Origin: Deltaproteobacteria bacterium | GTDB lineage: Bacteria; Desulfobacterota; Syntrophobacteria; Syntrophobacterales; Syntrophobacteraceae | Reading direction: 5' to 3' | Length of the DNA: 32,558 nucleotides | Assembly: GCA_012517775.1 (NCBI GenBank) | Contig: JAAYUJ010000015.1 | Coordinates: 1-32,558 of the forward strand | In this document: in pieces, positions 2,629 through 32,558 of the stretch | How positions within the stretch are numbered: position 1 is the first letter of the stretch | Layout: each line of letters begins with the position of its first letter | The notes under the pieces: model-generated | Seen by the model: the letters and a program-made list of their open reading frames with translations, nothing else | The model's database searches: none | What the model was told of the DNA's origin: nothing | Program-made: the position numbers and the translations under genes

Positions 2629-2674
2629 AAGTCTCTCATTTCGAAGTTCCCTGTCGCCATCAGAGGGGTATGGG

Positions 2675-2787
2675 TAACTTCTCAACAAGTGGGTCGGGAT
2701 TCCAATCCCGACAGCCTTAGCGCCAAGTTGTCGGGTATGGAAACCCGACCTGCGAAGTTCTCGATACCTGAGCTTATTGAGAAATTA
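2675..2787 (+). repeat. ~112-bp MITE-like intergenic repeat, copy A
   Basis: TIRs taacttctcaacaag ... cttattgagaaatta; internal hairpins gtcgggattccaatcccgac and gtcgggtatggaaacccgac. Confidence 0.85.
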
Positions 2788-2808
2788 CGGGTATGGGATC
2801 CAAACCCG

Positions 2809-4638: not shown

Positions 4639-4686
4639 GGATGATGTCTCCTGTTCATGGGGATACGGCTTTGCGCCCCGACTCGC

Positions 4687-4795
4687 ACCTTCTCAATAAG
4701 TGGGTCGGGACTCCAATCCCGACAGCGTCTGCACCCGTATGTCGGTTGTGGAAACCCGACACAGGACGAGAGATAGGGACTCATTGAGAAGTCAC
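4687..4795 (+). repeat. MITE-like intergenic repeat, copy B
   Basis: accttctcaataag ... ctcattgagaagtca, with internal gtcgggactccaatcccgac hairpin. Confidence 0.83.
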
Positions 4796-4977
4796 CTCCA
4801 ACTCTTAACGAGTAGTATATTTTACTTTAAGAGTGTATGGAGGAAACGCCGGCTGCTTCCCCCCATGGTACGATTCATAAGAACCACGTGCAACCGGCTC
4901 GTCACCCCCTTCGATCATGGGGGAAACCAGATGTGCAACCGGCTGACCTCCTGCCTCACCGTCGAAGAGCCCATCAC

Positions 4978-5092
4978 TGTACTCTCTCAACAAGAAGGTC
5001 GGGATTCCAATCCTGACAGCCTTTGCGCCAATGTGCCGGGTATGGGAAGCCGATCCTTGAAGCAATGGTCACCTTGACTTATTGAGAAATTA
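4978..5092 (+). repeat. MITE-like intergenic repeat, copy C (diverged)
   Basis: ctctctcaacaag ... cttattgagaaatta; internal gtcgggattccaatcctgac. Confidence 0.8.
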
Positions 5093-5277
5093 CCCCTCAC
5101 GCCCCCATGGAATGCCCATCATGATGAAAAGCGCCGGATTCTGCCGCCGAGTGCGCAGAGCCTGCGGAGACTTCCATCATATGATTCTCTGTGTGGTTTC
5201 TGTCATCTCTGGTGAAGTCAAGAGTCATCATGGCAGATGACTGCGTTCAGAGAATGTGTCCTGCAGGCGACAACGAG

Positions 5278-11155: not shown

Positions 11156-11208
11156 GAAGTCTCGCCATCCCTGAATGCCACTGCATTGCAGTACAGGTCG
11201 TGCGGCAG

Positions 11209-11320
11209 TACCTTCTCAATAAACAGGTCGGGATTCCAATCCCGACGGCGTTTGCACCCAGTGTCGGGTATGGAAACCCGACCTACGAAGGAGCTGTAAC
11301 CCGGACTTATTGAGAAGTCA
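11209..11320 (+). repeat. MITE-like intergenic repeat, copy D
   Basis: taccttctcaataaa ... cttattgagaagtca; internal gtcgggattccaatcccgac and gtcgggtatggaaacccgac. Confidence 0.85.
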
Positions 11321-11576
11321 TATGCGATATGGACAAGTCTTGACCCTGCGATGACAAATTGTGTCTCTCCGATGCCGTTTTCTGTCCGCCCCCTTCAATG
11401 TGAAGCTCATGCGCAGATCATCGCAAAAACCTGTAGACCGGCATCAGAAAACCATTTCATGTGTCCGGCTCAACTTGGCGCGATTATTGACTAGACCATC
11501 TTTCAAGAAGCTTTCCTCCAGGCAGCTTGGGATTGGACAGGATCAGGCAAAAACATTACAATTTGAAAGGCCGGTT

Positions 11577-12839: not shown

Positions 12840-14009
12840 TTATGGCGAAATGATCACCGTTACGGACAGAATCTCCCGATTTCTGTGCACAGTCAGGATG
12901 TGGCGGTCTCCAGGCTGGATCATGGCTTTGTGCAGGTCTTCCAAGAGCTTCAATGGAGCACCGTCGACCGTGAGAATGAGGTCGCCCTTCTTCATCCCAG
13001 CCTTTTCGGCGGGGCTTCCGGGAAGAACGGAAACCACTTCGAGGCCTTTTCCCGACGCGGTCTCACGAATCACCATCCCAAGCCTTCCCCGCCGGGAGGA
13101 TTCCGATTTCTCCGTGACCCACACATAGTCTGCCTTAGCAGAATCCACGATACTGTCACGGTAATCCAGCGGGACAGGGACAACAGTCTTATATGTGTGT
13201 GTTATCCGCCTGGCAACCAACTTGGGCAAACCTACCCGATGACTGACATGTCCCTTACCGACCAGCACCACTATCTGTTCGCTTCCAGAGGTTGAGAGCA
13301 GTCTCTGGGCCAGCGTTTCCGCCATGGTCTCCTCCCAGGCCAGCTGCGCCTCGAAAAACGTGTCGAAGTCACTGATGCTTCCTCTCATATGCTGAGCATA
13401 CTGGCTGCGGACATATTCCCGATGTATGGGATCATCCAGGTGAAAATCCTGCGCAACCCTTTCCCTTTCAACCAGGGTAAGAGACTGGAGGCCGTTCACG
13501 GCAATCTTGCGCACAATCTCCCGTGGGGCGTTCAGGCCAAGAATGGGAATCCTTTTTTCCCTGGCAAACATGAGAATCGGTCGATATAGCCTGAAGGGAT
13601 AACCCCACATCTCGTCCCAGTTGACTTCCTGGAGAAAGACTTCATCAGTCATTATTCCACTGGAGAAACGGTCCAGGATCGGCTGGGACTCCCTGGAAAA
13701 CATTTCCATCCCCACCGCCAGGGAAGCGTTCCCCGTGTGAAGGCGCGTGATTATTTCTTCCTGCACCCGATGGTCTTCGGTGCTGATATGCGTCTCTCCC
13801 ACGTAGACGATCTGCACGCTGGAGAGCTCCCGAAAAAGCAGGTCCCTGGAGATGGGTCTTCCGGAGTGGGTGTCTACTATATCACCGACCCTGTAGCCGC
13901 CTGACAGGGAGACTCCCTTCTTTGTGGGAACGGTCATAGATCCCATGCATCCCCAAAGCAAAACCCCGATCAATCCAATGAGAGAGCCTCTCAATACCAG
14001 CACGTTCAT
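12840..14009 (-). CDS. ChaN-family lipoprotein fused to a C-terminal PDZ domain
   Basis: MNVLVLRGSLIGLIGVLLWGC lipobox; VQIVYVGETHISTEDHRVQEEIITRLH, VGMEMFSRESQPILDRF, EIVRKIAVNGL, QIVVLVGKGHVSHRVGLP (ChaN); LEVVSVLPGSPAEKAGMKKGDLILTVDGAPL (PDZ). Confidence 0.85.
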   Translation of the reverse strand: MNVLVLRGSLIGLIGVLLWGCMGSMTVPTKKGVSLSGGYRVGDIVDTHSGRPISRDLLFRELSSVQIVYVGETHISTEDHRVQEEIITRLHTGNASLAVGMEMFSRESQPILDRFSSGIMTDEVFLQEVNWDEMWGYPFRLYRPILMFAREKRIPILGLNAPREIVRKIAVNGLQSLTLVERERVAQDFHLDDPIHREYVRSQYAQHMRGSISDFDTFFEAQLAWEETMAETLAQRLLSTSGSEQIVVLVGKGHVSHRVGLPKLVARRITHTYKTVVPVPLDYRDSIVDSAKADYVWVTEKSESSRRGRLGMVIRETASGKGLEVVSVLPGSPAEKAGMKKGDLILTVDGAPLKLLEDLHKAMIQPGDRHILTVHRNREILSVTVIISP

Positions 14010-14141
14010 GGAAGCGCTTCTCCTTCCCCTGATTTTGACTTTCCAGGCGTTTGGGCTCAGCACCGAAATGCTGTCAGGCGTCCTTTCGTGGTCCTCGTCC
14101 CTTTCGTGATGGAAAAAGAGGATCAGGACCGCCAACATGAT

Positions 14142-15260: not shown

Positions 15261-15408
15261 GAGTAGTCTTCAGGTTCGATGCTCGTGAGGTATACACATA
15301 AATCTGAATCAGTACCAGGAAAATCAAGATCTGAATTTCCAATTCACAGATGATCAGACTGATCTTGAAGAACGAGCAAGATGCCGAAGACGAATTCCTG
15401 TCGGCCGC

Positions 15409-15521
15409 AGCTTTCCAATGAGGAGGTCGGGGTCCATATCCCGACACCCCTTGCGTTAGGGTGTCGGGTATGGAAATCTGACTTGCGAAGCTGTCGTTAG
15501 CCGGCCTCACTGAGAGGCCAC
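15409..15521 (+). repeat. MITE-like intergenic repeat, copy E (diverged)
   Basis: ctttccaatgagg ... cctcactgagaggcca; internal gtcggggtccatatcccgac and gtcgggtatggaaatctgac. Confidence 0.75.
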
Positions 15522-15749: not shown

Positions 15750-16319
15750 TCAGATCGTCCTTCGATAGCCCACAAAACTGTGAATATCCTCCATCACACT
15801 CTGATAGTCCTTTTTCATACTCTCATACAGACGGGCGTTTTCGATGGCGATGGCCCCAATTTCAGCCAGAGCTTCAGCGAAGTTCAGTTCGGCCTTGTCG
15901 AAGTCCCTGGGCTCATTCGTGTAGAGGCGCATCACTCCGATCACGCTTCCTTTGACGGAGAGGGGAATGGAGACCATGCTCGCAATTCCCTCAGCGGCAG
16001 CCTCCTGAGGATACTGAGCTCGAGGATCGGTGCGGACATCCGAGATGATGACGGTCTTGCCTTTCATGGCTTCCGCGATGCTTTTGTCGGCAGCTACGGA
16101 ACCCTTCTTGATGTACTTATCACTCAGTCCGCACGAAGCTGAGAGCTCCAGGGTTCTCATCTTGGGATGAAGCAATCGGATGGCACACCCCTTCAGGCCC
16201 ATCACCTCGGTGACCCTCTCAACCGTGGCCTGGAGCACCGTTTGCACGTCGAGACTCGAATGCACCGCCTTCACAATGTCCCTGAACGATTCGAAAAAAG
16301 CTTTTTCTTTGGTTTTCAT
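15750..16319 (-). CDS. GAF-domain protein
   Basis: VQTVLQATVERVTEVMGLKGCAIRLLHPKMRTLELSASCGLSDKYIKKG..VISDVRTDPRAQYPQEAAAEGIASMVSIPLSVKGSVIGVMRLYTNEPRDFDKAELNFAEALAEIGAIAIENARLY. Confidence 0.9.
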   Translation of the reverse strand: MKTKEKAFFESFRDIVKAVHSSLDVQTVLQATVERVTEVMGLKGCAIRLLHPKMRTLELSASCGLSDKYIKKGSVAADKSIAEAMKGKTVIISDVRTDPRAQYPQEAAAEGIASMVSIPLSVKGSVIGVMRLYTNEPRDFDKAELNFAEALAEIGAIAIENARLYESMKKDYQSVMEDIHSFVGYRRTI

Positions 16320-16373
16320 GGATCACCTCCACTGTAACCGGGTTTATTGAAGAGAGCTCCGAAAGGGGTAGAT

Positions 16374-19300
16374 TCAACTGGTGAATCTTCCTGACCGGAG
16401 CTCGTGAACCGCCTCATTGAGACTACGTTCCAGCATGACATCCCTTGCGCCGACTTCATGCTCCGGCACCTCGAGTAAATCGAGAAAACGCTCTTTCTGT
16501 CTGGCTTGGAAAGGCCGAACCTGGTCCAACCTGTCCAATTCCAGCACCAGATTGCGCATGAGGTGTTTCTTGAGGGAAAAAGAATAACCGACTATTTCCC
16601 GACGCCGCTTGGATATCCTTTCCACATTCTCCCGGGTGATCAGGCGAAGCGCTTCCAGGCTCTTGAAGAGCTCGACCTTTTCCAGCCGTGGATTCGAGAG
16701 CAAATACCGGAGGAAAGCGTGAGGAAAGAACCGCAGTGCACTGGTGACCGGATTGGAAGCTGTCATTCCCAGCCCGCATTGACTGCCTGCCTTGATGGCG
16801 TCGCTTTTGGCCCACAATGCGTGAATGTGGTCACTCATCCCCTCGCCGTGGAGGATGATGTCCAGGTTCACTCCCAGGGACCGTGCACCCTGAAAGCAGG
16901 CAGGGCACTGCCCGCACGACTCTTCCGCAAGCCAGTCGGTAAAATGCCGCGCCAGCCGGACCACGTCATCGTCCTCACCGATGAAGACCAGACCGCCTGA
17001 ACCGAGCATGGCACCCACATCGTCAAATGCGTCGAAGTCCAGAGGAGTGTGGAGCAAGTATGAACGGATGCCGGTCAGTGAGAGAATTGCCCCCGATGGC
17101 CCTCCAATCTGAACCCCGGCAAGTCGCTTTCCTTCCTGAATTCCCCCACAAATGTGGATGATATCCTGCAATGTCCTTCCAAATCGGACTTCCACAAGCC
17201 CTGTGTGCTTCACAATCCCGGCCACGGAAAAAATCTTGGACCCGCCGGTATTTCCTGTCCCCTGTGCTGCATACCAACCGGCTCCCCGGTGGAGAATCAG
17301 AGGAACGTTGGCAAAGGTTTCCACGTTGTTGAGAAGCGTCGGCTTGCCCCAGAGTCCCCTCTGGGTATTGGACGGCGCGTTGAGGGTGGGTTCCGCCGCC
17401 TGACCTTCGATGGCACGCATGATCGCCCGTTTCTCTCCCGCCACAAAAGCTCCCGCTCCAAGCCGGATGTCCACGTCGAAATGGAGACCCTCGACACCGA
17501 AGATGTTCCTGCCGAGATATCCCTTCCTCCTCGCCTGGAAGATGGCATTCTCGAGACGCCTCACTGCATCTTCATATTCCTTCCGCACATAGATGACTCC
17601 GTATCGGGCGCCAACGGCAATGGCGGCAATGAGCATCCCTTCAAGGATCTGATGAGGCCTCTCCTGAATGAGCGTTCGATCCATAAAGGCCCCGGGGTCT
17701 CCCTCGTCGCCGTTGGCTACAATAAGCTTGATCCTGTCCTGATTCTCATCCTTTTCGAGGATGGTGCATGTGGCCTGCCTCATCCCATCCCACTTCCTCC
17801 CGGTGGGAAAACCTGCTCCACCCCGCCCTCTCAATCGGGCGGCGGCGATTTCACCGATGATGGCTTCCGGATTCCAGGGATCTTCCCCTTCAAGGCCGAG
17901 CACTCTCCTAACGGTATGATAGCCTCCCTGAGCCACATAGGCGTCGATGTTTTCAGAGCCTTTCGCTGATGAAAATCCGAGGAGCAGGCGATCCTGGAGC
18001 TTTAGGAAATCCTTCTCTTCCGGGGCTTCTCTCATAGCTCCTCGAACCTTTAGCCCCTCTTCCCTTTCCGGCGGTGCCTGAGTGGGAGGTCCAGAGAGTT
18101 CGATGAGCCTGTATCCACCGCTTTCATCTTGCACCACCATCGCATTGGCGCTGTAACCTCCTATTGGGAAGGGACCATCGAACCGATCCACCCACACCAT
18201 GTTTCCCTCCACGTAGGCACGGGGTTTCATTGTCCGGTTGAGCTCATCCGGGGCAAACGGAAACGGCGTGCGCACAACCGTCTGGACTTGGCCGGCATGG
18301 TCGAGGATCAGGGCGCCCAGTTGAGTTCTGCCGTCCGGCATACTGAAGTGGAAACAGAGACTCCCGGTAACCAGGCGACCGAGAAATTCCCTGCGCGCCT
18401 CGATGTGTGCGAAAACATGGCCGGTATCACTGATCTGAAGACAGGCTCCCTCCAGGGTTTTCCCGGAAACATCGGAATCCTGGATGGGATACCCCTTTTC
18501 GTGTGCTTCAGGAAATGAGATAAGCGGCTGGTTCGATCCTCCCGAAGCATCGCCCGTCAGGGACTTGATCCTGAGCTCTTCGATGGGATCGCTTTGGTGC
18601 CCCGGAGCCAACATCCGCCGGATCCTGTCCAGAAACATGATGCGGTTTTCATAGCTCGGACCCTTCATCAGCTGGTCCAGGAGCATTGGAATATCTTCAG
18701 CCTTCCTCCTCCCGAGAAAGGTATCCCGTGTCTTGATCACCGGGGCGAGATGACAGACACCAAAACAATCCATTTCGATGAACTGAACACCACCTTTGCC
18801 CACCTGGCCTTCGTCAGCCATGATTTCATCCGCGATTTTGCGGGAGAGCTCGGGTTGCCCCCTTAGGAAACAGGCAGTCCCCTTGCAAACATATATGATG
18901 ATGTCCCCCCCTCGGTCGGCGCTGAATTGCTTGTAGGATGCGATGAGGCGTATGACATCCACGGGATCGATTTGGAAATGATCGACAATTCGCTCGACGG
19001 CTTCGGGAGTGACATAGCCGAAAATGTTCTGAACCTCATGGAGCACCCTTGGCAGATGGGCGCGGGAGCTCAGGCCGGGGATTGCCCTGTAGATATCCTT
19101 GTGCTCTTCCCGTTCGGCAATGGCTGCAATCACATCGGGTCTCAGCATGAATGCATAAAGGAAGATTCTCATCTCATCATCGGACAGCACCAACGGCTTG
19201 GCGGCATATTCCGGGAGCATGTTGTACCGAGCCAGCTCACCTCCGAGATGCTCCATCTGGACATTCCGGGGCGCATAGCAACTGGAGAGGATAGCGCGAT

Positions 19301-20162
19301 AGGCGTCTTCCCTTTCGATGAGATGGCGTACAAAGGCCGCATGCCCAGCCTTTTCCACCGGAAGACATTCCAGAAGATACACAGACGCTCTTTCCAGAGG
19401 TTTCAGGCTTACAGGGATGCCGCGATCACTCCAGATTCGATCTGCTTCCTGGATCAGTCGGTTCCAGAGCTCTTCAGGTTCTTGGGGTAAGGATATGGCG
19501 CCGACAAAGAAATCCAATGGAATTCCCATTACAATTCCTAAACCGACAACAAGCAGGCGGAGGCCCTCCTCGTTCAGCTCCGCAAATCTCACCGACTGGC
19601 TCATGAGAAACTTGCGAGCCATCATCAAGCCTGCAAGACTACCTTTCGCTTCAGACATCAATCCATCCAGGGCATGTCTGTATGCCTGCGGGTCCGATGT
19701 TCTCAGCGCCTCAAATTGAACCAGTTCGTCCTTCCGTTCCGAAGCCCGCCTGCCGGAATCATCCCCCAACAGGCATCCATCTTCAATTCTCCCAAGGTAT
19801 TCGAGCATCATCTCGAGGACGTCAAGCTCACGCCAATCCACCCGGGAGAGGAAGGCCTCAATCAGACTTATCAGACTCTCCTTGCCTTGAGTGTCCAAAG
19901 GGATTTGTTGATTGTCCGATAATGACCTGGTGAATGCCTTGATCCTCTCCGGTTTTCCAATCAGGGCAAGTCGGAGCTGTTCCAGGCTGAACCTCAGGGT
20001 ACAGAGCTCTCTCGCAAGGCATTCCATGTACGCAGGGATCCTGGAATCCCTGGGGGCCAGGCCGGCCAGGCCGGCAAGTCTATGGCAATGAAGCCACTGA
20101 ACCGGGCTCATATCCGGGTCGGGGACACAGTTCAAATCCTGAAAGAAACCGTCCGTAGTCAT
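16374..20162 (-). CDS. Giant NuoE-NuoF-type fusion flavoprotein (NAD(P)H dehydrogenase module)
   Basis: NuoE part: [29 protein letters not shown]...CFGVC (2Fe-2S). NuoF part: [88 protein letters not shown]...SQCGLG (4Fe-4S). RBS-like GAGG upstream. Confidence 0.9.
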   Translation of the reverse strand: [1262 protein letters not shown]

Positions 20163-20231
20163 GGGGCATGTCCTCTTGAGTTTGAAAACCCCAAAAGTTA
20201 AAAAAACGTCTCGGTGGCTATGTTAAAATCC

Positions 20232-23200
20232 TCAAATGCATTCCGCTTGAATTCGGGTTACTTGATCCTGCACCCACTCTTCAAAGTCCCTCTCCGCTTC
20301 CCTGGCAGCCTCCTCCTCCAGCACCAGAGGTGAAGCTCCAAGAAGTGCCTGCATCTTCTCATCGATCTCCCTGATCCGCTCGTGTCGGTCTGCCCTTGAG
20401 GAACACCTCAGGTCTGCCACCGGCATCATCCAATGTTCCACAAGGAATCGCAGAAAATCCTCCCACGATGGTTCCGAGACGTGCTTCTGATATTGCCGCA
20501 GAATATAGAAAACCGTTCTTCGGTCTATTGTCCCCGCATTCCAGCCGGCGAAAATCTCCTCTCTCTTGTCGTCGAGTTGATCAACAATCTGTCGGATACG
20601 GCTCTGAAAAGTGGCCACACGCTCTGATTCGAGAAGATCCGAGAGTTGCCGGTACATCTCCTCCTTGATCTGCCCGAGGGCCACTCCTCTCCGGCTGATG
20701 ATCAGAGCATGGCGATCGTCCACGTGGCCATCTGCTTTGAGGATATCCAGCCGTATTTTTTGGAACTGCCGCTCGATCTCGTTCAATTCCGGATGCTGTG
20801 CAGCAAGCTTCCTGGCAGTCACCGTGGTGAAGATCCAGATCTTTCGATTCTTCAAAGGTGCCATTCGAGCTGATTCTCTCTCTGCGGCCGATTTCAGGGC
20901 GTCCTCATCAATGCCCGTGAGGTCATAGCCGCTTGCCAGCAATTCCTCCACGGCCTTGCCCGGAAGGGTCGATTCGGAGTCTTTCGCCAGTACCAGAAGA
21001 TGAAAGCGGAGGAAGTTCAGGAGTTCATTGGCGGCCGCAGCCACATTGCGCTTTTCCCTGCGGCCCACCCCCCTTCTCAAGCACAGGTTGACAGCCTCCT
21101 TATCCTGGAGACCGGAAACTAGAAGCTGGATTCCGACGCGTTCCTCCGGCATCGTTTTCGGTGGTGGTCCCTCAAGAATACGCTCCTCTGTGAATCGCAA
21201 CCAGGCAGCTTCAATGATGTCCGATGTTTCACGGATCTCCCGCAGCAGGGCGGTGAGAGTGTCGAGATTCCCCTCCATCTTTGCCAGGAGGAAGAGGTAG
21301 TGAAGGAGCCGATCATGATCAATACGGGGTTGCTTGTAAAGAATACGGTCTACAGCATCTTTGAGATCCGGAAGACTGTTCAGAATTCTGTCCTCCAGGA
21401 TGTCGCGGGTTTGGCGTGTTCTGGAAATCAGACTTTCCTGGAGCAGGCTGTATGCCCTCCTGCGGAGGAACGTGTGGAGCATGTCCCCCTGAAAAGCCCT
21501 GAAAAGGTCCTTCTTCTCCCGGATGGCTTCAAGAATTCCACCCATTCTCCTCTTGACCTCGTCAGGGCCGGCCCCGCTCTTCAGAAGATGACGGACGGAC
21601 ACGCGAAAAGACCCTATGGGCGGTCTTCCTGAGGAAGATCCTTCGATTTGCTTGTTGAACCATTGCCACTCAACCCTCTCCTGGGCACGACTGCGAATGA
21701 TTCCAGCAATAAGAGCGCGGATGAGGGCGGCGCGCTTCACCAGAGAACCGCTCCATTCTTCCAGGAAAAAGACACCGTCGCCCTGACCCTGGCGCCCGCC
21801 GGGCTCGGCACCCATCTCCAATGCGATGGCTTCTTGCTCTGCTTGGGAAAGCTCACTCCACCGGCATGAAAACTCACGCGAAAACAAAACATTCTCTGTC
21901 TGAAACCGGTTCCAGAGGCTCTGCCTTGCGATACTTAAGAGATCGTCCTGAGCCGTCGGTGTTCCGGAAAGTGACAATGCCCCCTGAGGGTCCTCATCTG
22001 CAAGACCCTCCAGGAACATTCTCAATTCAGACATGCCCGTTACAGATCCACCGCTGCGCAATCCCTTGAGTGCCGTCCGCCGCATGTCGAATTCCAAGAC
22101 CTCCTGTTCCACCAACCGCTCCAGGAAGTCTGCGAAGAGGTTTCCTGAGAGCGTGTCTGCTGCATCTCCTCCAGCATCTGCCTGATACTTCTCCAGGGCT
22201 ACAAGGGCATCTCCAGGTGCGAGCGAGCTTTCCTGATGCCAGTAGGCATTCTTGATGATTTTTGTGAAGTCTTCCCAATCATGAATGGAGAATTCCGGGT
22301 GTTTCATGGTGAGGAGATCCTCGTTCCACCAACGCCTGAATCCGTCCTGCCAATGTTCCAACCTGTACTGGAGCACCAGCTTTCTGTCTCGCGGGCTCAA
22401 CTGATGAAGGAATAGCTTTTCGCCATAAAAATACTGCGCTATGGACAAAGGGTCCCGGCTCAGCAAGAGTGGTCTTCCCTGGCGGTTCCGGGCCGCGAGA
22501 GAAAGCCAGTCCTGCCTCTGTTTGAGAGCATTCCACTCAGACTCCTCCCTGACATTCCCCTGCTCCACAAGGAGTCTTCTCTCTGCATCGGTGAGTCGTT
22601 CCGCCGATTCGTAGCCTACGTATCGGCAGAGCTCCTGGTAAAAGCTTTCAGAATCCGGGCACTTGAAAATCTCCGGTTTGGAGGGCAGCTCTTCCCAGAC
22701 ACGCTTCCAACGGTCGAGGAAAAGCCGCCTGGCTTTTCTCTTCTCCGGGGAGAACAGTGACTCAAATGATTCGCGGTGAGGGCTCTTGAGCCACTGGGAA
22801 AGCTCCTGCAATGCACCCAGGGGATTCAAGTCGGGCTTCGCCCCCTGTCCATCTTCCCTCATGGCACTCAGGATCTCCACCACTCGGGATAGTCCCGGCG
22901 CTGGGAGCTGAACACACCCACTTGGCTCCTTCCTGCCACGCAGCAGGGATCGCGCGAAATGAAGGCAGTCAGGCTCTCCGCATGCACCGCAGTCCAGCTG
23001 CGGCAGAACAGCATGAACGGCGGCAAGAAGTCCTGCGTCGGGGTCGGCGGACTCATCTCCTCGACCAAGTAAGGAGAGGAAAGTGGAACGTACTGTTTCG
23101 AGGGAAAGGGATCCGGGAGCCCGTTCGGATTGTTCCGCATCCTTCGCTGTGTCTTCAAGAAATCTGTCTAGATCCGTTGCCTCGAGAAAAGCCGTGAGAT

Positions 23201-25259
23201 CAGGGCCAATGCGCCGATGGGCCAACCAGGCAACATAGGCCTCCCACTCCGCGTGGTTCATGATGAACGGGAGACACTGGGCTCGATAGAGCCGGTTCTT
23301 CACTCCTGTGAACGCTTGCCGGTTCGACCTTCGAGCGATAGTTTCGAGCCGCTCCAGGGAGGGTGCGAGGAATCTCACCAGGGCTGGAATCACCTCATTG
23401 AAGGGTTTGGTCACCTCGAGGCGAGGGAGGTTGCTTTGATGTCTCCCGAAAGCGACAGCGAGCAGGTAGTGTGTGGCACTAATCTCTCGCAGCAGCTCTT
23501 CGTCAATTCCGGATGAGGATGTTTCAATGCTGCCCGCAACCAGGCCGGCGGGTGTCATGCCCGAGAAATAATCCCGTATGGAATCGAGGGGGTGCGCCCA
23601 GCGTCCGGTGGCATCGATGGAATGAGCGGAAGCGAGGGAGATTAACCATTCCGGTGTATTGGACAGATCTGATTTCGATGCAAGCAGGCTGGCATCTTTT
23701 TGGAGCTTTTCCGGATCAGGACTGATATCATTTTGAATCATCCGAAAAAAGCTGTAGCGAGCAAAAACCCCGTAGTCGTGGGAACCCTGAATCGTCCTCG
23801 TGCGAGCAATGCGATGGAGAGTCTCCCACTGCTTCTTTCCCTCTTCTTCCATGAGTCGCTTGAACTCCTGCTTGGATCCCAGTTCATATCCCTTTCGCGG
23901 GCGAATCAGATAGCGCACGACATTTTCAGGAAGCAGGGCTCTGATACTGTCTTCCCAACTGGAATCAGGTTCGCCAATGGGCCATGGATGACTTGCGAGA
24001 AACCAGGATGTCGCAAAACGGACAAGCCGCCGCACGAGGTGGGCCTGGGGGAGAGGCTGTGAATAAGCCTTTGCATATGAATTCATCTCTTCCATGACCT
24101 CCGCCAGAATACGCTGGTGCAGGCGAACCAGTGTCTCCCGTCCTAAGTTCAGATCACGGTCGAAGTCTCCTGAGAGCTCATCAATATTTACAAAGAGAGG
24201 CACCCGGGACATTTCCAATCGTTCCGTGTCAGCCAGAGAGACACACGATATCTCATAAGGGTCACGGAACTTCTCGTGTTTGATCCCGAAACCTTCTTCC
24301 TGCAGTTGATCCAGCACGGAAATCACCAGAGGCAGGCGATTTTCGCGAAGGGTTCGCTGCACCACAACCCGCATGAGGTCCAGGAGACTGTCGAATTCGC
24401 GAGTGGAATGAACCCTGTCGAGCCTGACCTGGTCCTCCTTCTCCCATGTCTCGGAGAGGCAGAGCTGGTGGGAACGGAGCAGAACATACAGGACCGCCCT
24501 TAGAGGCAAACCGGCAAATAGGTCGGGGTCGATTCTGGATTCCAGTTCCTGGGTCAACCGGGCGCTCAATCGATTCAGATCAACAATACCGGCCTTGCTC
24601 ATTTCCCCCAATAAAGAGTGCTCAAGCCAAATGTGGAGATCCTCCAGTCTCTTCAAAGAGTGTCGCTCCGTCCCTGTGCGCAGAGCCTTCAGGCGATCCA
24701 TCCGGATTTCGTGGTTTTGAGGGTCCGATCGATGATACCTTTCAATATCTAGAAAAATCCTCGTCCAGGAGGCGATTTCCAGGGGTTGTTTTCTGAAGAA
24801 ACCGGCCTGCTCCACGTGGCTGAAACCGGTCAGCAGAGGGATCGAAACACCGAGCTTCGAGGAGGGCGTCACGTCTTTTCCCTTCTCCCAGTGTTGCCGC
24901 AGCAGAGAATATGTGGAACTGGCTCCATCGGGCGTCTCAGCCATTCTGCACTTCGACTCGGCATCGAAGAGACGTTCCACTGCATCGCGAACGCAATGAT
25001 GAACCAGATCGCCCTCCGTGGAAAAAATGAAAAAGGTGTGGAGAAGATACAGGATTTGGGAGATCACCTCTCCCTTCAATGACTCCAGTTGCTGCCGTAA
25101 CCTGATGCCGAAATCGGATGGCAGTATGCCTGGAGGAGCCTGCCGCTTCTCAGGGGTGATCGTTACACCCCCTCCTGAAACCCTCGATCCATTGGGCCGT
25201 CCAGGAAAGATGCTCTCCACCTCTCGGTAAATGGCCTTTCTTTTGCTCTCGCTGATCAT
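20232..25259 (-). CDS. Giant (1675 aa) protein of unknown function with one Fe-S (CFeSP/RnfB-type) motif
   Basis: Continuous 1675-codon ORF between two redox genes on the same strand; LDCGACGEPDCLHFARSLLRGRKEPSGC resembles the CxxCx4C...C Fe-S motif (PF04060-like). The rest is largely helical in composition and not assignable. Confidence 0.85.
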   Translation of the reverse strand: MISESKRKAIYREVESIFPGRPNGSRVSGGGVTITPEKRQAPPGILPSDFGIRLRQQLESLKGEVISQILYLLHTFFIFSTEGDLVHHCVRDAVERLFDAESKCRMAETPDGASSTYSLLRQHWEKGKDVTPSSKLGVSIPLLTGFSHVEQAGFFRKQPLEIASWTRIFLDIERYHRSDPQNHEIRMDRLKALRTGTERHSLKRLEDLHIWLEHSLLGEMSKAGIVDLNRLSARLTQELESRIDPDLFAGLPLRAVLYVLLRSHQLCLSETWEKEDQVRLDRVHSTREFDSLLDLMRVVVQRTLRENRLPLVISVLDQLQEEGFGIKHEKFRDPYEISCVSLADTERLEMSRVPLFVNIDELSGDFDRDLNLGRETLVRLHQRILAEVMEEMNSYAKAYSQPLPQAHLVRRLVRFATSWFLASHPWPIGEPDSSWEDSIRALLPENVVRYLIRPRKGYELGSKQEFKRLMEEEGKKQWETLHRIARTRTIQGSHDYGVFARYSFFRMIQNDISPDPEKLQKDASLLASKSDLSNTPEWLISLASAHSIDATGRWAHPLDSIRDYFSGMTPAGLVAGSIETSSSGIDEELLREISATHYLLAVAFGRHQSNLPRLEVTKPFNEVIPALVRFLAPSLERLETIARRSNRQAFTGVKNRLYRAQCLPFIMNHAEWEAYVAWLAHRRIGPDLTAFLEATDLDRFLEDTAKDAEQSERAPGSLSLETVRSTFLSLLGRGDESADPDAGLLAAVHAVLPQLDCGACGEPDCLHFARSLLRGRKEPSGCVQLPAPGLSRVVEILSAMREDGQGAKPDLNPLGALQELSQWLKSPHRESFESLFSPEKRKARRLFLDRWKRVWEELPSKPEIFKCPDSESFYQELCRYVGYESAERLTDAERRLLVEQGNVREESEWNALKQRQDWLSLAARNRQGRPLLLSRDPLSIAQYFYGEKLFLHQLSPRDRKLVLQYRLEHWQDGFRRWWNEDLLTMKHPEFSIHDWEDFTKIIKNAYWHQESSLAPGDALVALEKYQADAGGDAADTLSGNLFADFLERLVEQEVLEFDMRRTALKGLRSGGSVTGMSELRMFLEGLADEDPQGALSLSGTPTAQDDLLSIARQSLWNRFQTENVLFSREFSCRWSELSQAEQEAIALEMGAEPGGRQGQGDGVFFLEEWSGSLVKRAALIRALIAGIIRSRAQERVEWQWFNKQIEGSSSGRPPIGSFRVSVRHLLKSGAGPDEVKRRMGGILEAIREKKDLFRAFQGDMLHTFLRRRAYSLLQESLISRTRQTRDILEDRILNSLPDLKDAVDRILYKQPRIDHDRLLHYLFLLAKMEGNLDTLTALLREIRETSDIIEAAWLRFTEERILEGPPPKTMPEERVGIQLLVSGLQDKEAVNLCLRRGVGRREKRNVAAAANELLNFLRFHLLVLAKDSESTLPGKAVEELLASGYDLTGIDEDALKSAAERESARMAPLKNRKIWIFTTVTARKLAAQHPELNEIERQFQKIRLDILKADGHVDDRHALIISRRGVALGQIKEEMYRQLSDLLESERVATFQSRIRQIVDQLDDKREEIFAGWNAGTIDRRTVFYILRQYQKHVSEPSWEDFLRFLVEHWMMPVADLRCSSRADRHERIREIDEKMQALLGASPLVLEEEAAREAERDFEEWVQDQVTRIQAECI

Positions 25260-25379
25260 AAGCGTCTTTTCGTTTCTCTGAGGTTCAAGGTATCTTTTTC
25301 AGTTTGAAATAGTCTGATTTCACCGTAGTTCCTCATGCTCCTTCGGCGACACCCGAAACAAGGAAAAAGATCATAGACA

Positions 25380-25432
25380 GGTCGGGTTTTCCGCCCTGCA
25401 CTCCCCGTCGGGAATGGAATCCCGGCCTATGG
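25380..25432 (-). repeat. Degenerate remnant of the MITE-like repeat (copy F)
   Basis: caggtcgggttttccgccctgcactccccgtcgggaatggaatcccggcc matches the core in reverse orientation; no TIRs are seen. Confidence 0.5.
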
Positions 25433-28400
25433 GGTGGATGGAGCCGAAGCACTCTTGAGAGGATTCACGCCGCGGGTATCCAAGAGCTGTGGCATCACCC
25501 AGTGGCGGAAATAGTCCATATAGAAAGCGGCGCTTCTGGGATAATCCGGAAGGCAACGTTCCAGGAGATAGCGCTCGAGCTCCCGTGAGATTTCAGCCGA
25601 GGATTCCTCTGCGGCTTTTTCCTCAAGTGCTCTTCGCAATCTCTCTAACAGTTCAGCCAGGCGTTTCTGCCCCTCGCCCTCGAAGAGCTCGGCCAGCTCA
25701 GGAGCGTGGTGCCGCACAAGGATCTCTCTCTGGAGAGTCCAGTCAATAAGATCCCGGTAACAGCAACGGTAACTCCAAAGGATCCCATCCGCCTGATGAG
25801 GGGAAAACCGCTCGAAAACCCGGTAGAGGGGGGACTGAGTCACATCCTGCATCCTCTCGAGAAGCTCGTGCTCATAGTCCTCAGGGTTGAAGAAAAGGGG
25901 TCTTTCTCCATTCATGACCACCATCTCCCTCAGGATCCTCTGAATCCTCCTTCCCTCCTCAGGGTCAAAAACCATCGAAAGGGGAGTATCCAGGTCTGAC
26001 GAATCGGGACAGGAGTCACATGGAGGCGCGCTGAGAGACTCAAGCTCTGTCTCCTCGCCTGCAACGGGTTGCTCTGTCTGCGCTTCCTTCTCTTCAGAGT
26101 CATGGCCAGAAAGCTTCAGTGCGCCACGCAGGAGCTCCGAAGGGACTTTTCCTGCCTCAACCTCCTGCTGGATTATGGCACGGGCATATTCAAGGTCCTG
26201 TTCCTGATGGCTGTAGTGAAGAAGGATCATTGCATGCCGCAGACTGCCGATTCCTGATACCATGGCGTGCCTCGCCAGTCTCAACTCCAGATGCAGGACG
26301 ATCTGCTGATGCAGGGCGGACTCCTGCAGAACTTCTCTCGCATCCAGAAACTCAACCTGATGATAGGTCTGGAGAAACTGGGGATAGTCTTTGGTCACGA
26401 GGAATGCCTTGAGTCTTTCCAGGTTGTCCCGGTATTCTCTTGTTTCTGCTTCTCTTGTTCGAAGATGGGCTGGTACTCGCGTATGGCGACTGGTATTACG
26501 AAGGTCCAGAGCTGCGGCTTCAGCGAGGAAGGCCCTCAGGATTTCGTCCTCTTCCATCCAGCGCTCAATCAAAGGGGTTTCCCAGCCATGGGGATTGTGG
26601 AAGAGAAGGTGCGTCGAGAGAAGGATCTCTTTCATCTGATCTACCGTCACGTCACGACCACCAAGTCCTCCCACCAGAGTCCTGAGGGGCTTTCTTTGAA
26701 CTTCCGGGCTTCGGGATGCCATGCGGCCGAAAGTGGCGAAGATCCTGGAGGCCAGCGGAGGAATGGAGCCGAAGCTGTTGGACCGGTCGAGCACAACGAC
26801 CCTTCTCGCCGCTTCCAGCCATGGAATCAGCTTCTCCTCGGGAAAGGGATTCATGCATCGCAGGGAAAGACAGGCCATGCCTCTCCAGCCTTCATGCTCC
26901 AGCTCCGAAAGGGCCTCGACCGCGTTGGGAAAAAGGGAACCCTGAAGGATGAACAGGGTTTCCGTGTGGGAGGAGTTCCTCCCGGATGAAATGCCACGAT
27001 CCGCCTCCCACTCCATCTCAATCCCCGGCGGTCGTCCATCGGTCCCTCCCTGGGTTATCACCTCGATCTCGTCCAGCCGGACCCCTGTCAGCTCGAATAC
27101 GGCATTGAGGGCATAAGGCAGGATTCGGGTGAAGGCCAGGTGAGCTTTTTCTATCTCCGACTGGGTTTCCTGGTACACTGCGGATGTTCCACTGGGACCG
27201 TGAACAATCAGTTCTCCTTCATGATTCGTCAGCTTGTTCTCCAGGTAGTTGAACCCATCGAGGGTCTTCTTCAGCCAGTCTCTGACTCTTTGGTCCGATG
27301 GGACCCTGACCAATCCGATCTTGTGCGTATCCGTTATCCCACCTATGGAAAGGATCACCGGCAGCCTGGCGAAATGGGTCAGAATTCTGGCCAGATAGAG
27401 GGAAGGCACATATTCCTGGATGTCCTTGGGGGCAAGCATGATTCCCCCGTCATCCCTGAAGCTCATAAAATCCGTGTGGCTTTCCTCAATATTGAGATTT
27501 GGAGCGGCGAGGGCTCGTTTGGTAAGGATGAAGAGCCCTTCCAGACGGGCTCCCACATACTGGGGGATGATTTCGGTGAAAAGCCTCCAACCTTGGGATG
27601 CCGTGAATGTAACGGGGAGAAAACCGCCTGTGCGCGCCACACCTAAAAGCTTCTCGGCAGCTACTTTCTCCGATGGGTTGACTTCATCCACCACAATGTA
27701 CGGATGTCCGTTGGCAAATGCCTCCGCCATGAAATAGAAGGGGTTTCCCGCAGGCGTGATGGGAAAGCCAACGTAAAAGAGAGGGCTCTCCGCCGTGGCG
27801 ACTTGACTGAGCACCATGCCCGCAAGGGTTCCTCCCATGATCATGAGGTGCTCCGCCGGGTCTTGAAGCCATTTGAAACCATCGGATCGGCCTGGTGAAA
27901 TGGGAAGGCCCTCTATGCCACCGGATTCGGAGGTTAGCGCAACCATTGGGGAGTAATCGGCGATCATCCCCGGTCCAAGAAAGCCCGGCACGAGAGATTC
28001 CGATTCATGGATCGCTGCTTCCATGGCTCTGCCGTACCAGTCCAACAGCTCCTTCTTTTTTTTCACGGCTTCTGGAAAACCCTGGCTGAGGAGGACCAGA
28101 TCCTTTTCCCAATCGAAGGGGAAACCCAGCTCCTGGAGGGCGCGAAAAATAGGGCCGACTGCCACAAGATTGGAAACCACCCTGGAAGAACCTGAAATCC
28201 TCTCCATGATGCCGTCCATATCCACAGAAACGAGCCTGACACATGCCATTGCCGCCACCTTTTCGGCATCGTGCTTCTCTTGCTCATCCAGACGTTCGAA
28301 CGGCCTATTCCAAAGGATAACGGATGCTTCCTCGACAAAAGCACGGACCACGCTCTTGTCGCTCTGCTCCCCACTGCCGCAGTCTGCATTCTGAGTCGAA

Positions 28401-31400
28401 GGCCCTCCCGGCTTCGAGAGCCGCTCCTGCAATTCCGCCACGGCCTGGCGGATCCTGTCCGGGTATTTCCCCGTCAGCTCCTGCCACAGGATCTCAGGAG
28501 GCTTGCGGTGATTGATGATGAGATACCCTCCCGGGCGAAGCCGACTGAAGAACAGGTCCGGATTCTGTTTCATCTCCTCGTAGTTGGTGACGACGAGAAC
28601 AAGCATGGGGAAGCTGTGCATGGCGTCTTTTCTGTGGAGCGGCTTCGCATCGACAAAGGTGGCGGACAGAACGGGGGTGCCCCGCTTGGAAGACCCGAAC
28701 TGCCATGCCATTCCCGCCCAGGCTCCCCTGGCACTTAAAAACTGGGCAAAAGCCCTGTTTATGGCGATGCCCCGGTCGCCGGCAAGACTGGCGACACCCA
28801 GGGCAAACGGTCCCAGTCGGTCGATATGCCTCCTGAGCCTGACCCGCTCTACGGTCGTCTCAGCGACTTTGCGGGTCTCGATGATCCCGCCCCCTTCCAT
28901 GAAGTCCTTCCTGAGCTGTTGGCTCAGACGGAACTGCTGGAGTTCCACCTGTCTGGCAAGGGCCCGCTCATCCAGTATTCGGTCGAGGATTCGGAAGAGC
29001 GCTTTGCGCCGCATTTCCGGAACACTCGGAGCAGATTCCTGCGCGGAGCTGCGCGAAAGGATCTCGTCTTCCAGAGGACTGGAAGGAGACTTTTCGGCCA
29101 GGAATTCCCTGACAGAGCCCAATGCCTCATGCAATGCCCGGCTGGCGTCGGATATCCTGGCGAGGGTCTCCTCAACTTTGCTGTCCGGACCTTGTAGATC
29201 GTCCATGAAGGGGTCCGACCGTCCCTCCAGTCTCTCCAGTTCCGCCATGAAAGCCGTGATGCGGGTATCATGGTCCTCAATGGCTTCGTCTCGCTTCGCC
29301 TGGTAGCGGTTCAACGGCTCCCAGCCGAGTACTCGACGAACCATCTCCTGTTCCAGGCTTGCACGATACTCGGGTTTGAACTCTCCCTGGCTGTCAAACA
29401 GCATCGCATAGGGAAAGACCTCGAGCTGATAGCAGTAGTGTCTCCATGTTGCCCTGAGCTCCTGGAGGAAGGAAGCAACCCATTCCTCGGCCTGCCGTAC
29501 AATGCGTGTCTCCAGGTCGATCTGCCAGTTGAGCTGGTCGCGGTAGCTCTCCAGCTGTGTGATAAGATAATGGGCCACGATGTTGCGAGGCTCGGACTCT
29601 CCGGTCTGAGGGTTCTTGCGAAACAGGTCCCGGTAGCGAGGATCCCTGGTCAGCCAGTATTGGATGGGCTTGGGATGATTCCGCCACTCCCTCCATGGCC
29701 TGTTCCGGTCCTCTGGGTGGAACGGAGCAACGCGTTTTCGGAACCTTCCGACGAAGACCAGTTCGGGCAGCATTCCTGCGTGGGCCATTACCTCCGCCAG
29801 ATCATCCGGATCCTCTCCGAAAAACTTGCCTGTTTCCGGACACGGCGTCACATCCCATCGAATGGCCGACTGCCCGAGCTGGTCAGCGAGCATCCAGAAT
29901 TGCTGCATGGATGCCTTATTGCCGCTGTGGCCGGTCCCTACGAGAATTCCAGGAAATTCAGCGGCGAGGTTGATCAGGTTCCATTGGATTCTCTGATTTC
30001 CCATAAGGAACTTGCCCACCGGCGTGGTGAGGGTGCCGAGGCCCAGGAGTGAACTGGCCGAGCTTTCTCCTCCTGTGTTGGAGTAAACTTGTGTGTCCGT
30101 AATGTTGATAAAATGGAGCACATTGGGGTGCCGCTGCTGAATGAGAAAGGCTTTTTGTCTCAGAGCATTCAGGAAGGCAGGCAAACCGATGACGGACCCT
30201 CCATCGCCCCCCTGGCTCACCACATAGCGACGTCCCTTTGGGAGGTTCCCCAGACGCACACTCCAGTCCTGAGCCATGGCGATGGCCTCTCCGAACGCAA
30301 ATCCTCCGCCGAAGACAGTCCGCCCCCCCGGAACTTTCTGGGCGACTTCCTTCACCTTGTTGAGCGTTTCACTCATACATCCCGTTTCACACGTGAAAGA
30401 AACATGAGGAATCTCTCCCCTGGCCAGGCTCATGGCAATGCTCATATAGACGGGCAGGGCAAGGACCTGGACTTCCGCGCATGTTGGACATGCGCTGTGT
30501 CCGCTGGCAATGGCCATGTGGCGGTAGCGTGCATGGATAAGGGCCTGATTCCGCGGTATGTTCCCGAGGAGCTCCCGGGCGACTTCGGCCTCCGCAGCCC
30601 TCAGCTCGGGACTTCCCCTGAAGATGGCTGCCAGATCTGCATTGAGTTGCATGAGCAGGCGGTTTTTCGTGATGGGCAGAGCCTGGAAGATATGTGGAAA
30701 GACGATCTGGGCCACCCTGCCCGTTTCCGCAAGAATGCTCTGCTGCAGATCCGCAGGCACCCCATCGGCGAATGGGCTCATGAAGAGGTCCGCTTCCCGG
30801 TTCTTCCAAATATCGAGGGGGGAGGCCCATCTGAAACGTCCCAATCGGTAAAAAAAACTGGCCGTATTATGGGTGGGAAAGGACATCCCATTGTCCGCCG
30901 TGGCTGCAACGGCCTCCACCAGGATGCCCAAAGTCATGGCCGCCCGCGCCATAGCCCATTCCACATCCCCCGTTCGCGTTTGCAGCAGAAGGGCTCCCCG
31001 GTAACGCCTGCGCACCACGCATCTTTCCGAATCCCTCCCGTTTCCATCAATGTGGCTCGCAAGAAGCGGAGCGGGCCGCTCGCCCCCGTGGCCCTCTCCC
31101 CACTCGAGAGTTACCTGTTTGCGAACCTCCAGGATCTGCGCAAACTCCTCCGGTCTCACCATTCGGGCATGCACTCGGACAGGGAGCCATGGCGGTAACT
31201 GCATTTCCCACTCACTCAGTGTCTGCAGATAGTCCCAGGCATGCTTTCCGTAAAGGACAACGCCCGCACCCCCTTCATCGATTCTCAGGTCGGGCTCCAG
31301 TGACCTTTTCAGATTCTCTTTGGATTCAACATGGAGGTAAGAACACCGCTTCCGACACAACCCGCAATTGGTGCAGTAGTCTTCCATTGGTCCGAGGAGA

Positions 31401-32062
31401 ATGCTCTCCCCCTTCCAGGTGACGACCCGCATTTCACTGCAGGCAGTTACGCACCTCAGGCATTGAGTGCAAAGCCTCGGTTCATGCATGACCTTCTGCG
31501 GGATATGCTTCCTCAAACGTTCCGTATTGTGACGCTGTATGATGGAGTGTGCCCCGATGGTCAGAAAGTCGCCGTAGTCATCGAATCGGGTATGCTCGAC
31601 CCCGCTTTGTGTGATCAGTTGAAAGACGAGGGTCAAGGCCCCCCAGAATGCCGGTTCGGCAGGCCATGCGAGTTCCAGAAGGTGGAAGTCCCCCGCGGAA
31701 TCCTCCAGAAGCGTAGCCAATGGAACGGCATCCTGTTTTCGCTCCGGCGGTTGAAAAAAAACGAGAAAGAACCGCCCCTGGTTCATCTCACGATCCAGCA
31801 GTTCATGTAGGGACCCCGGCCATTCTTTTCCACGGCAGTCCAGAGCATACCGGGAGCCGATGAGACTTGAAACCAATCCCAAACCTATCGATTCATGCCT
31901 CACCAGCCTGTAGGAACGCCCGTCCATCATCACGAGCGCGGCCCCGTCGCCGGGCTTCCCGATGAGCTTCCAGTGCTGTTCGGATGTGCTCTTTCTTGCT
32001 TCGGACAGTTTGGAGAGCTCGCTGAAGAGCCCCCTTATCCAGTAAGGATCAGTGTGAGCCAT
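25427..32062 (-). CDS. Giant pyruvate/2-oxoacid:ferredoxin oxidoreductase-like protein, domain order Fd-beta-gamma-alpha
   Basis: 2x[4Fe-4S] CTQCLRCVTAC..CTNCGLCRKRC; beta: CPTC..CETGC, GGDGGSVIGLPAFLNALRQ..ITDTQVYSNTGGESS (PFOR TPP motif); gamma-like GDRGIAINRAFAQFLSARGAW..SSKRGTPVLSATFVD; alpha: YVGFPITPAGNPFYFMAEAF, NPSEKVAAEKLLGVARTGGFLPVTFTASQGW. Start at 32062 preferred (AAGGA 8-12 nt upstream of MAHTDPYW); the ORF could begin at 32113. Confidence 0.9.
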   Translation of the reverse strand: MAHTDPYWIRGLFSELSKLSEARKSTSEQHWKLIGKPGDGAALVMMDGRSYRLVRHESIGLGLVSSLIGSRYALDCRGKEWPGSLHELLDREMNQGRFFLVFFQPPERKQDAVPLATLLEDSAGDFHLLELAWPAEPAFWGALTLVFQLITQSGVEHTRFDDYGDFLTIGAHSIIQRHNTERLRKHIPQKVMHEPRLCTQCLRCVTACSEMRVVTWKGESILLGPMEDYCTNCGLCRKRCSYLHVESKENLKRSLEPDLRIDEGGAGVVLYGKHAWDYLQTLSEWEMQLPPWLPVRVHARMVRPEEFAQILEVRKQVTLEWGEGHGGERPAPLLASHIDGNGRDSERCVVRRRYRGALLLQTRTGDVEWAMARAAMTLGILVEAVAATADNGMSFPTHNTASFFYRLGRFRWASPLDIWKNREADLFMSPFADGVPADLQQSILAETGRVAQIVFPHIFQALPITKNRLLMQLNADLAAIFRGSPELRAAEAEVARELLGNIPRNQALIHARYRHMAIASGHSACPTCAEVQVLALPVYMSIAMSLARGEIPHVSFTCETGCMSETLNKVKEVAQKVPGGRTVFGGGFAFGEAIAMAQDWSVRLGNLPKGRRYVVSQGGDGGSVIGLPAFLNALRQKAFLIQQRHPNVLHFINITDTQVYSNTGGESSASSLLGLGTLTTPVGKFLMGNQRIQWNLINLAAEFPGILVGTGHSGNKASMQQFWMLADQLGQSAIRWDVTPCPETGKFFGEDPDDLAEVMAHAGMLPELVFVGRFRKRVAPFHPEDRNRPWREWRNHPKPIQYWLTRDPRYRDLFRKNPQTGESEPRNIVAHYLITQLESYRDQLNWQIDLETRIVRQAEEWVASFLQELRATWRHYCYQLEVFPYAMLFDSQGEFKPEYRASLEQEMVRRVLGWEPLNRYQAKRDEAIEDHDTRITAFMAELERLEGRSDPFMDDLQGPDSKVEETLARISDASRALHEALGSVREFLAEKSPSSPLEDEILSRSSAQESAPSVPEMRRKALFRILDRILDERALARQVELQQFRLSQQLRKDFMEGGGIIETRKVAETTVERVRLRRHIDRLGPFALGVASLAGDRGIAINRAFAQFLSARGAWAGMAWQFGSSKRGTPVLSATFVDAKPLHRKDAMHSFPMLVLVVTNYEEMKQNPDLFFSRLRPGGYLIINHRKPPEILWQELTGKYPDRIRQAVAELQERLSKPGGPSTQNADCGSGEQSDKSVVRAFVEEASVILWNRPFERLDEQEKHDAEKVAAMACVRLVSVDMDGIMERISGSSRVVSNLVAVGPIFRALQELGFPFDWEKDLVLLSQGFPEAVKKKKELLDWYGRAMEAAIHESESLVPGFLGPGMIADYSPMVALTSESGGIEGLPISPGRSDGFKWLQDPAEHLMIMGGTLAGMVLSQVATAESPLFYVGFPITPAGNPFYFMAEAFANGHPYIVVDEVNPSEKVAAEKLLGVARTGGFLPVTFTASQGWRLFTEIIPQYVGARLEGLFILTKRALAAPNLNIEESHTDFMSFRDDGGIMLAPKDIQEYVPSLYLARILTHFARLPVILSIGGITDTHKIGLVRVPSDQRVRDWLKKTLDGFNYLENKLTNHEGELIVHGPSGTSAVYQETQSEIEKAHLAFTRILPYALNAVFELTGVRLDEIEVITQGGTDGRPPGIEMEWEADRGISSGRNSSHTETLFILQGSLFPNAVEALSELEHEGWRGMACLSLRCMNPFPEEKLIPWLEAARRVVVLDRSNSFGSIPPLASRIFATFGRMASRSPEVQRKPLRTLVGGLGGRDVTVDQMKEILLSTHLLFHNPHGWETPLIERWMEEDEILRAFLAEAAALDLRNTSRHTRVPAHLRTREAETREYRDNLERLKAFLVTKDYPQFLQTYHQVEFLDAREVLQESALHQQIVLHLELRLARHAMVSGIGSLRHAMILLHYSHQEQDLEYARAIIQQEVEAGKVPSELLRGALKLSGHDSEEKEAQTEQPVAGEETELESLSAPPCDSCPDSSDLDTPLSMVFDPEEGRRIQRILREMVVMNGERPLFFNPEDYEHELLERMQDVTQSPLYRVFERFSPHQADGILWSYRCCYRDLIDWTLQREILVRHHAPELAELFEGEGQKRLAELLERLRRALEEKAAEESSAEISRELERYLLERCLPDYPRSAAFYMDYFRHWVMPQLLDTRGVNPLKSASAPSTP

Positions 32063-32132
32063 GATGAGTCCTTTTCCATCAACGGAATCCGGCGTTTCCC
32101 GTCTTATTGCCACTCCGTTACACGCGATTCAT

Positions 32133-32245
32133 CTCACTTCTCAATAGATCCCCGTCAAGACAGCTTCGGATGTCGGGTTTCCTACCCGACATCCGGGTGC
32201 GAATGCTGTCGGGATTGGAATCCAGACATGCTTATTGAGAAGGTG
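32133..32245 (-). repeat. MITE-like intergenic repeat, copy G (inverted)
   Basis: tcacttctcaatag ... cttattgagaaggtg; internal gtcgggtttcctacccgac and gtcgggattggaatccagac. Located directly upstream of the giant oxidoreductase cluster. Confidence 0.83.
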
Positions 32246-32558
32246 CCGATTCGTGTCATGAGAAACAGGTGCGCTATTCCAGAATGCCTTGCAGGTGGCG
32301 ACCCTTCAGGCTCCAAATCTGTTGATGAACTGATCTGAAGTGCGAAAGGCGAAGGCACGGCTGATAGGAAGATCAAATCCGTGGCAGGTTCAGATGAACT
32401 TGGCAGGAACAGGAAGATAACAGGAATGGAAGAACAAGCGATCTTTGTCGGCAAATCAAAGGGAAAAGGAAGAGTCGGGTCCCCGTGGCTTCCGGGCAAT
32501 CAAGCTCGGAGGACTTGGGAGAGCACCTGCTTCAGCACTTTCAACTGGTGCTGATTAA

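Follow-up and report, generated by a model that had tools for sequence, protein, structure and literature searches.

The window analysed here, a 32,558-nucleotide stretch of DNA from a bacterium of the family Syntrophobacteraceae, encodes on its minus strand three giant proteins that, judged from their sequences, probably form a dedicated and probably soluble 2-oxoacid:NAD(P)+ oxidoreductase complex that works independently of ferredoxin. Electrons would pass from a 2-oxoacid oxidoreductase (OFOR) to a NuoE-NuoF fusion (NUOEF) linked to it by an Fe-S protein of a new family (FES). More tentatively, the trio may define a new class, a ferredoxin-free and NADP(H)-specific 2-oxoacid oxidoreductase megacomplex with protomers of more than 5,000 residues, its rearranged OFOR being wired by a previously undescribed scaffold family of ~1,600 residues to a NuoEF module whose nucleotide site has been remade.

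In reading order, the locus comprises the genes for OFOR, FES, NUOEF and a GAF-domain protein (Table 1). The original prediction of four reading frames at these positions on this strand holds, with intergenic gaps of 167, 69 and 54 nt, each 1 nt below the 168, 70 and 55 nt given there, and its assignment of OFOR, NuoEF, GAF and Fe-S modules is backed by Pfam and NCBIfam matches. Translation of OFOR very probably begins with the ATG at 32062 rather than with the GTG at 32113, since this Met is invariant in an alignment of nine homologues, a ribosome-binding-site-like GGAAAAGGA lies just 5' of the codon, and the family profile starts at the same residue. No promoter-like site was found in the gaps, with promoter and terminator scans both falling below shuffled background, and an Rfam scan returned no RNA element.

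Table 1. Features of the four-gene locus, in window coordinates.
Feature	Position	Strand	Details
OFOR, 2-oxoacid oxidoreductase ORF	25427-32113	minus	2228 aa from GTG at 32113
Giant OFOR, preferred start ATG	25427-32062	minus	2211 aa; domains delta-beta-gamma-alpha
OFOR delta-like 2x[4Fe-4S] ferredoxin domain	31334-31495	minus	residues 207-260, numbered from GTG
OFOR beta-like TPP domain	29504-30523	minus	residues ~531-870; PorB 1.8e-11
OFOR gamma-like domain	28094-28816	minus	residues ~1100-1340; PF01558, 2.8e-7
OFOR alpha-like POR_N + PFOR_II	26636-27802	minus	residues 1438-1826; PorA 3.5e-25
FES, Fe-S protein of new family	20232-25259	minus	1675 aa
RnfB/CdhE-type [4Fe-4S] motif in FES	22911-23006	minus	PF04060, residues 752-783
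Most conserved FES block	20235-21362	minus	residues ~1300-1675, LAKMEGNLDxxTxLLREIRETSDIIEAAWLxF
NUOEF, NuoE-NuoF fusion	16374-20162	minus	1262 aa; ~350-aa N-terminal extension, NuoE, linker, NuoF
NuoE-like [2Fe-2S] domain	18669-19070	minus	residues 365-498; Cys 426, 431, 466, 470 invariant
NuoF-like FMN/[4Fe-4S] domain	16710-18020	minus	residues 715-1151; Cys 1083, 1086, 1089, 1129 invariant
GEKRA replacing GEETA	17424-17438	minus	NUOEF residues 909-913; rebuilt adenosine-ribose subsite
GAF-domain protein, fourth gene	15750-16319	minus	189 aa; GAF domain 2.3e-20

Around the locus, an intergenic MITE/REP-like repeat of ~115 bp occurs at window positions 2674-2788, 4685-4799, 4979-5093, 11205-11325, 15407-15521 and 32130-32250 (inverted); its ends resemble TTCTCAATAAG/CTTATTGAGAA, and it encloses two GTCGGG...CCCGAC hairpins. 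By BLAST it is present in ~40 copies in the genome of the window (40 of 523 first-look candidates scored) and is essentially absent from a genome of the same genus, G001. Also on the minus strand are a 609-aa protein with an unusual pairing of an HMGL-type (homocitrate/isopropylmalate synthase-like) domain and a Cache sensor domain (2809-4638), and a PDZ domain fused to a ChaN-type haem-binding domain (12840-14138).

The giant OFOR retains the alpha, beta, gamma and delta modules of its class, with 12 ligand cysteines and the TPP motif invariant. Pfam matches comprise POR_N (4.6e-27), PFOR_II (6.3e-9), POR gamma (2.8e-7) and a weak ferredoxin dicluster. Cysteines 215, 218, 221, 225 and 247, 250, 253, 257 of the delta-like domain and proximal-cluster cysteines 542, 545, 579 and 758 correspond to two ferredoxin-type [4Fe-4S] clusters and one proximal [4Fe-4S] cluster; the TPP motif, GDG...DTQVYSNTGG, is intact. 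Few invariant cysteines occur in OFOR, FES or NUOEF beyond the expected cluster ligands. The alpha domain is nearest to PorA models, scoring 88.7 bits against a cut-off of 550 bits, and the protein falls far below every NCBIfam POR cut-off, outside the pyruvate-specific POR/PFOR assignment, so that its score does not settle the substrate; pyruvate is the most likely candidate. The same domain can be aligned to Moorella PFOR across the ITP, SE and R-A-L segments, where PFOR structures place the Thr and Arg that contact pyruvate as well as the catalytic Glu, and OFOR therefore looks active.

By its sequence, FES is a new family of 1,500-1,700 aa with a single predicted cluster. A Pfam scan gave PF04060 alone (1.8e-10), a motif of ~33 residues, bearing out the original description of a third giant with an Fe-S motif and no other recognisable domain, and a scan of 11 FES homologues likewise gave nothing besides PF04060. 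Cysteines 757, 760, 765 and 782 are invariant, sufficient for one [4Fe-4S] cluster. FES shares this four-cysteine motif with RnfB and CdhE (the CFeSP large subunit), but the match spans ~50 of 1,675 residues, confined to about profile residues 732-794, and no homology to these proteins was found outside it; beyond the Fe-S motif, FES has no relatives in Pfam or among PDB sequences. Profile comparisons of FES with OFOR and with NUOEF revealed no shared domain. Five family members matched HEPN_RES_NTD1 weakly (best E 0.02), a hit that we discounted. Structures predicted for segments 1290-1675 and 735-1030, from the window and one relative (L021), consist of helices at low confidence (mean pLDDT 48 and 42, respectively), a quality too low to support fold comparison, so FES is predicted, with that same low confidence, to be mostly helical in the two modelled segments. 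Because it offers one cluster in ~1,600 residues, FES could be a pure scaffold or have another role.

NUOEF matches Complex1_51K (1.6e-40), NuoE-type 2Fe-2S (4e-23), NADH_4Fe-4S (1.1e-17) and, weakly, SLBB. Its eight invariant cluster-ligand cysteines provide for one [2Fe-2S] and one [4Fe-4S] cluster, and the FMN motifs GRGGAGFP, a glycine-rich loop, and NGDEGDPGAF are intact. The nucleotide site, on the other hand, is altered. Every one of the nine giant NUOEF proteins compared has GEKRA, whereas the 17 further NuoF proteins encoded in these genomes, like T. maritima HydB, carry GEETA, GESTA, GEATA or GEVTA. All nine giants also have A-[PIV]-SNT and lack the PP[FY]P-type stretch that most other NuoF proteins keep; the GEET(A) and PP[FY]P signatures of NAD-binding NuoF/HydB proteins are thus both missing. 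The second Glu of GEETA corresponds to E183 of E. coli NuoF, which disfavours NADPH. The replacement by GEKRA suggests a preference for NADP(H), whose 2'-phosphate the Lys-Arg pair would suit. However, with the PP[FY]P-type motif gone from the adenosine pocket as well, the nucleotide might be something other than NAD or NADP. Another NuoF subgroup with a changed adenosine site is formed by L080, L084 and L085, 617-aa Bfu-type paralogues in G034, G001 and G000 in which GESTA and RGKHIHT replace GEETA and PPFP.

Co-conservation of the trio had been set beforehand as the test on which the original prediction could fail, and it was found. In a sample of 56 genomes of the class, each searched by profile, OFOR and NUOEF match the same 17 genomes, FES matches 16 of these, and the other 39 have none of the three. 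The exception, G036, is an assembly of ~380 contigs in which the OFOR and NUOEF pieces both stop at contig ends with FES missing between them, so FES is better regarded as unassembled there than as shown to be absent. Searching with a single FES sequence gave matches in the window's genus, family, order and class. In every resolvable FES neighbourhood, the trio has the same order and strand, and this order is kept in five families, with FES identity down to 27%; because it recurs in at least 13 other genomes, chance adjacency of the genes can be dismissed. The genomes with the trio also carry several ordinary OFORs and several NuoF proteins.

Sampling of the distribution covered the phylum of the window, where an evenly drawn set of 395 genomes added one further family, f12, in whose order FES was found in 3 of 29 genomes. 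The trio is present in the f12 genome G283, where FES identity is 27%, and is split over two contigs in another, G216. This patchy presence fits loss or transfer. The GAF gene adjoins the trio in most relatives and lies 12 kb off in G011, and no GAF match was found within the flanks examined in G283. G216 has two GAF matches, in tandem after NUOEF (L057:5773-6831).

Adjacency alone is no proof of physical association, and with gaps of 69-167 nt the genes could be translated separately. The genes could thus share an operon without their products forming a single complex, with OFOR dependent on ferredoxin, NUOEF acting as a separate dehydrogenase and FES serving as an assembly factor or carrier. 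We consider this improbable, given that the giant OFOR and NUOEF are never apart in the 56 genomes and that each giant is extended by large regions that stand-alone OFOR and NuoEF proteins lack. Pairwise distances co-vary among the trio, with Pearson correlations of 0.85-0.98 of a kind that shared ancestry alone also gives. In G041, a single MAG, FES and NUOEF are read in one continuous frame of 2394 aa or more, an arrangement that, as read from the assembly, supports physical association; in G045, of the same genus, NUOEF occupies a separate frame of 1364 aa, and in G026 and G032 the FES and NUOEF genes overlap or abut.

Alongside the observed gene order, co-inheritance, intact cofactor-ligand signatures and altered nucleotide site, we infer the assembly, its wire through FES, its direction, its substrate and its nucleotide as follows. 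The giant OFOR would use TPP and CoA for the oxidative decarboxylation of a 2-oxoacid, pyruvate being the most likely one, and release one electron at a time through the proximal [4Fe-4S] cluster and the two ferredoxin-like [4Fe-4S] clusters. FES would act as a large, mainly helical scaffold that holds OFOR and NUOEF, and its RnfB/CdhE-type [4Fe-4S] cluster may relay electrons. In NUOEF, electrons would be gathered on the [4Fe-4S] and [2Fe-2S] clusters, and FMN would make the hydride for NAD(P)+, more likely NADP+. Energetically, pyruvate oxidation (-500 mV) can directly reduce NAD(P)+ (-280 to -380 mV; potentials from PMC9304861).

The same potentials bear on the opposite direction, in which the complex would mainly synthesise pyruvate, drawing on NAD(P)H together with reduced ferredoxin that docks at the delta clusters of OFOR or at the cluster of FES. 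NAD(P)H alone would be too weak a donor for this (about -280 to -380 versus -500 mV) unless bifurcation operates. OFOR does keep ferredoxin-like clusters, and pyruvate synthesis in energy-limited organisms has been proposed for Por-Bfu (PMC9304861), a related system compared below. Neighbouring genes in family f2, which also include an HD-domain protein, speak to both sides: citramalate synthase (TIGR00977, 5e-233), a pyruvate user, lies just downstream of the trio, whereas three genomes have, upstream of it, an NDP-forming acyl-CoA synthetase, which fits the use rather than the supply of acyl-CoA. These neighbours suit pyruvate and acetyl-CoA, albeit circumstantially, and we regard a mainly reductive role as unlikely.

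Whether the oxidative complex also bifurcates depends on features for which two published sets of criteria exist. Bifurcating beta-subunits have Ala/Glu and Met at HydB positions 232/234, a Phe near the FMN site and GGPSG (PMC7311640). All these features are present in each of the nine giants compared, as NGDEGDPGAFMDR, AGAFVAGE and GGPSG: the giant NuoF has Ala and Met at T. maritima HydB 232/234 and a Phe before the GE motif, the Phe being matched by motif, as position 367 of PMC7311640 did not map in the numbering used. The nearest solved relatives of the domain are HydB/NfnB/HoxF-type subunits, of which HydB and NfnB come mostly from bifurcating enzymes. In the Bfu family (BfuABC), on the other hand, the BfuBC core has six Fe-S clusters, five of them (B1-B5) in BfuB, BfuA is absent only in Type 4, and clusters B2-B5 occur in all true Bfu enzymes and are absent from non-bifurcating homologues (PMC9304861). 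The giants have no conserved cysteines for B2-B5, their conserved sets being the B1-type 1083/1086/1089/1129 and the NuoE [2Fe-2S], and Pfam finds no Fer2 or NuoG-type domain in OFOR, FES or NUOEF that could represent BfuA; with neither the six-cluster core nor BfuA, they fall outside the Bfu family. Residue and cluster criteria, as applied to these sequences, therefore disagree.

The original prediction had raised bifurcation or confurcation, which, because B2-B5 have no conserved cysteines, is not supported on present evidence. An enzyme in which the NUOEF FMN couples 2-oxoacid chemistry to NAD(P) and to a third partner, ferredoxin or other, as proposed for Por-Bfu, is in our estimation unlikely, and a Pfam search for a second flavin domain found none. 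The giant NuoF proteins form one well-supported clade on a very long stem (2.27 changes per column), which makes their placement in the tree unsure and means that inherited residues may not mean inherited function. A closed bifurcating machine is possible; in our reading, a Bfu-like ancestor lost its ferredoxin-docking clusters and was then wired to OFOR through FES.

Among known systems, the ordinary single-chain PFORs (for example Moorella 6cin and Desulfovibrio 1b0p) resemble the giant OFOR in uniting the TPP, gamma, delta and alpha modules in a single polypeptide. Their domain order is alpha-gamma-delta-beta, whereas the giant has delta-beta-gamma-alpha and ~1,000 extra residues. Direct wiring of a PFOR to an NADP reductase, as proposed here, is known from the pyruvate:NADP+ oxidoreductase (PNO) of Euglena and apicomplexans, a PFOR fused to a cytochrome P450 reductase-type domain that works without free ferredoxin. 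The giant set has NuoEF instead, and Pfam detects no cytochrome P450 reductase-type domain; a PNO-type reductase was set aside, there being no flavodoxin or FNR domains in the giants. Phenylglyoxylate:NAD+ oxidoreductase (PadEFGHI) is likewise an NAD-linked OFOR, and its PadI seems, from a weak NCBIfam match, to join a ferredoxin dicluster to a TPP subunit as the giant OFOR N-terminus does. Pad uses PadH, a flavoprotein of another family; in the giant OFOR and FES, Pfam found no FAD-type flavin domain.

The nearest parallel, and the only one that literature searches for this composition returned, is Por-Bfu, a predicted seven-subunit complex of POR and a NuoEF-type flavoprotein reported from Chloroflexi and syntrophic Proteobacteria (Schut et al. 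2022, PMC9304861). Both systems encode POR modules together with NuoE/NuoF-type subunits and have bifurcating-type NuoF residues, but Por-Bfu consists of seven separate subunits of ordinary size, includes BfuA and clusters B2-B5, and lacks FES and giant fusions. The two are distinct systems, since G283 carries the trio and, as a separate gene set (L075:201-6567), a complete Por-Bfu-like cluster of PorC, PorD, PorA, PorB, BfuC, BfuB and a Fer2/NuoG-type BfuA. The original statement that no complex of this composition had been described thus stands for the giant fusions and FES, of which we found no description, and not for the general idea, which the Por-Bfu prediction shares. If real, the complex would add an independent solution to those of Pad, PNO and the predicted Por-Bfu for wiring a low-potential 2-oxoacid oxidoreductase directly to NAD(P). 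A bifurcating-type flavoprotein would then be seen to persist without ferredoxin-docking clusters, and the conflict between published residue and cluster criteria would make the set a natural experiment on what lets a NuoF-like subunit bifurcate. FES would stand as a large and new family of anaerobe proteins that relay electrons or act as a scaffold. As far as we found, the novelty relative to the already predicted coupling of POR to NuoEF lies in how the set is built, with a giant OFOR of rearranged domain order, a NuoEF whose nucleotide pocket has been remade and, newest of all, the FES family.
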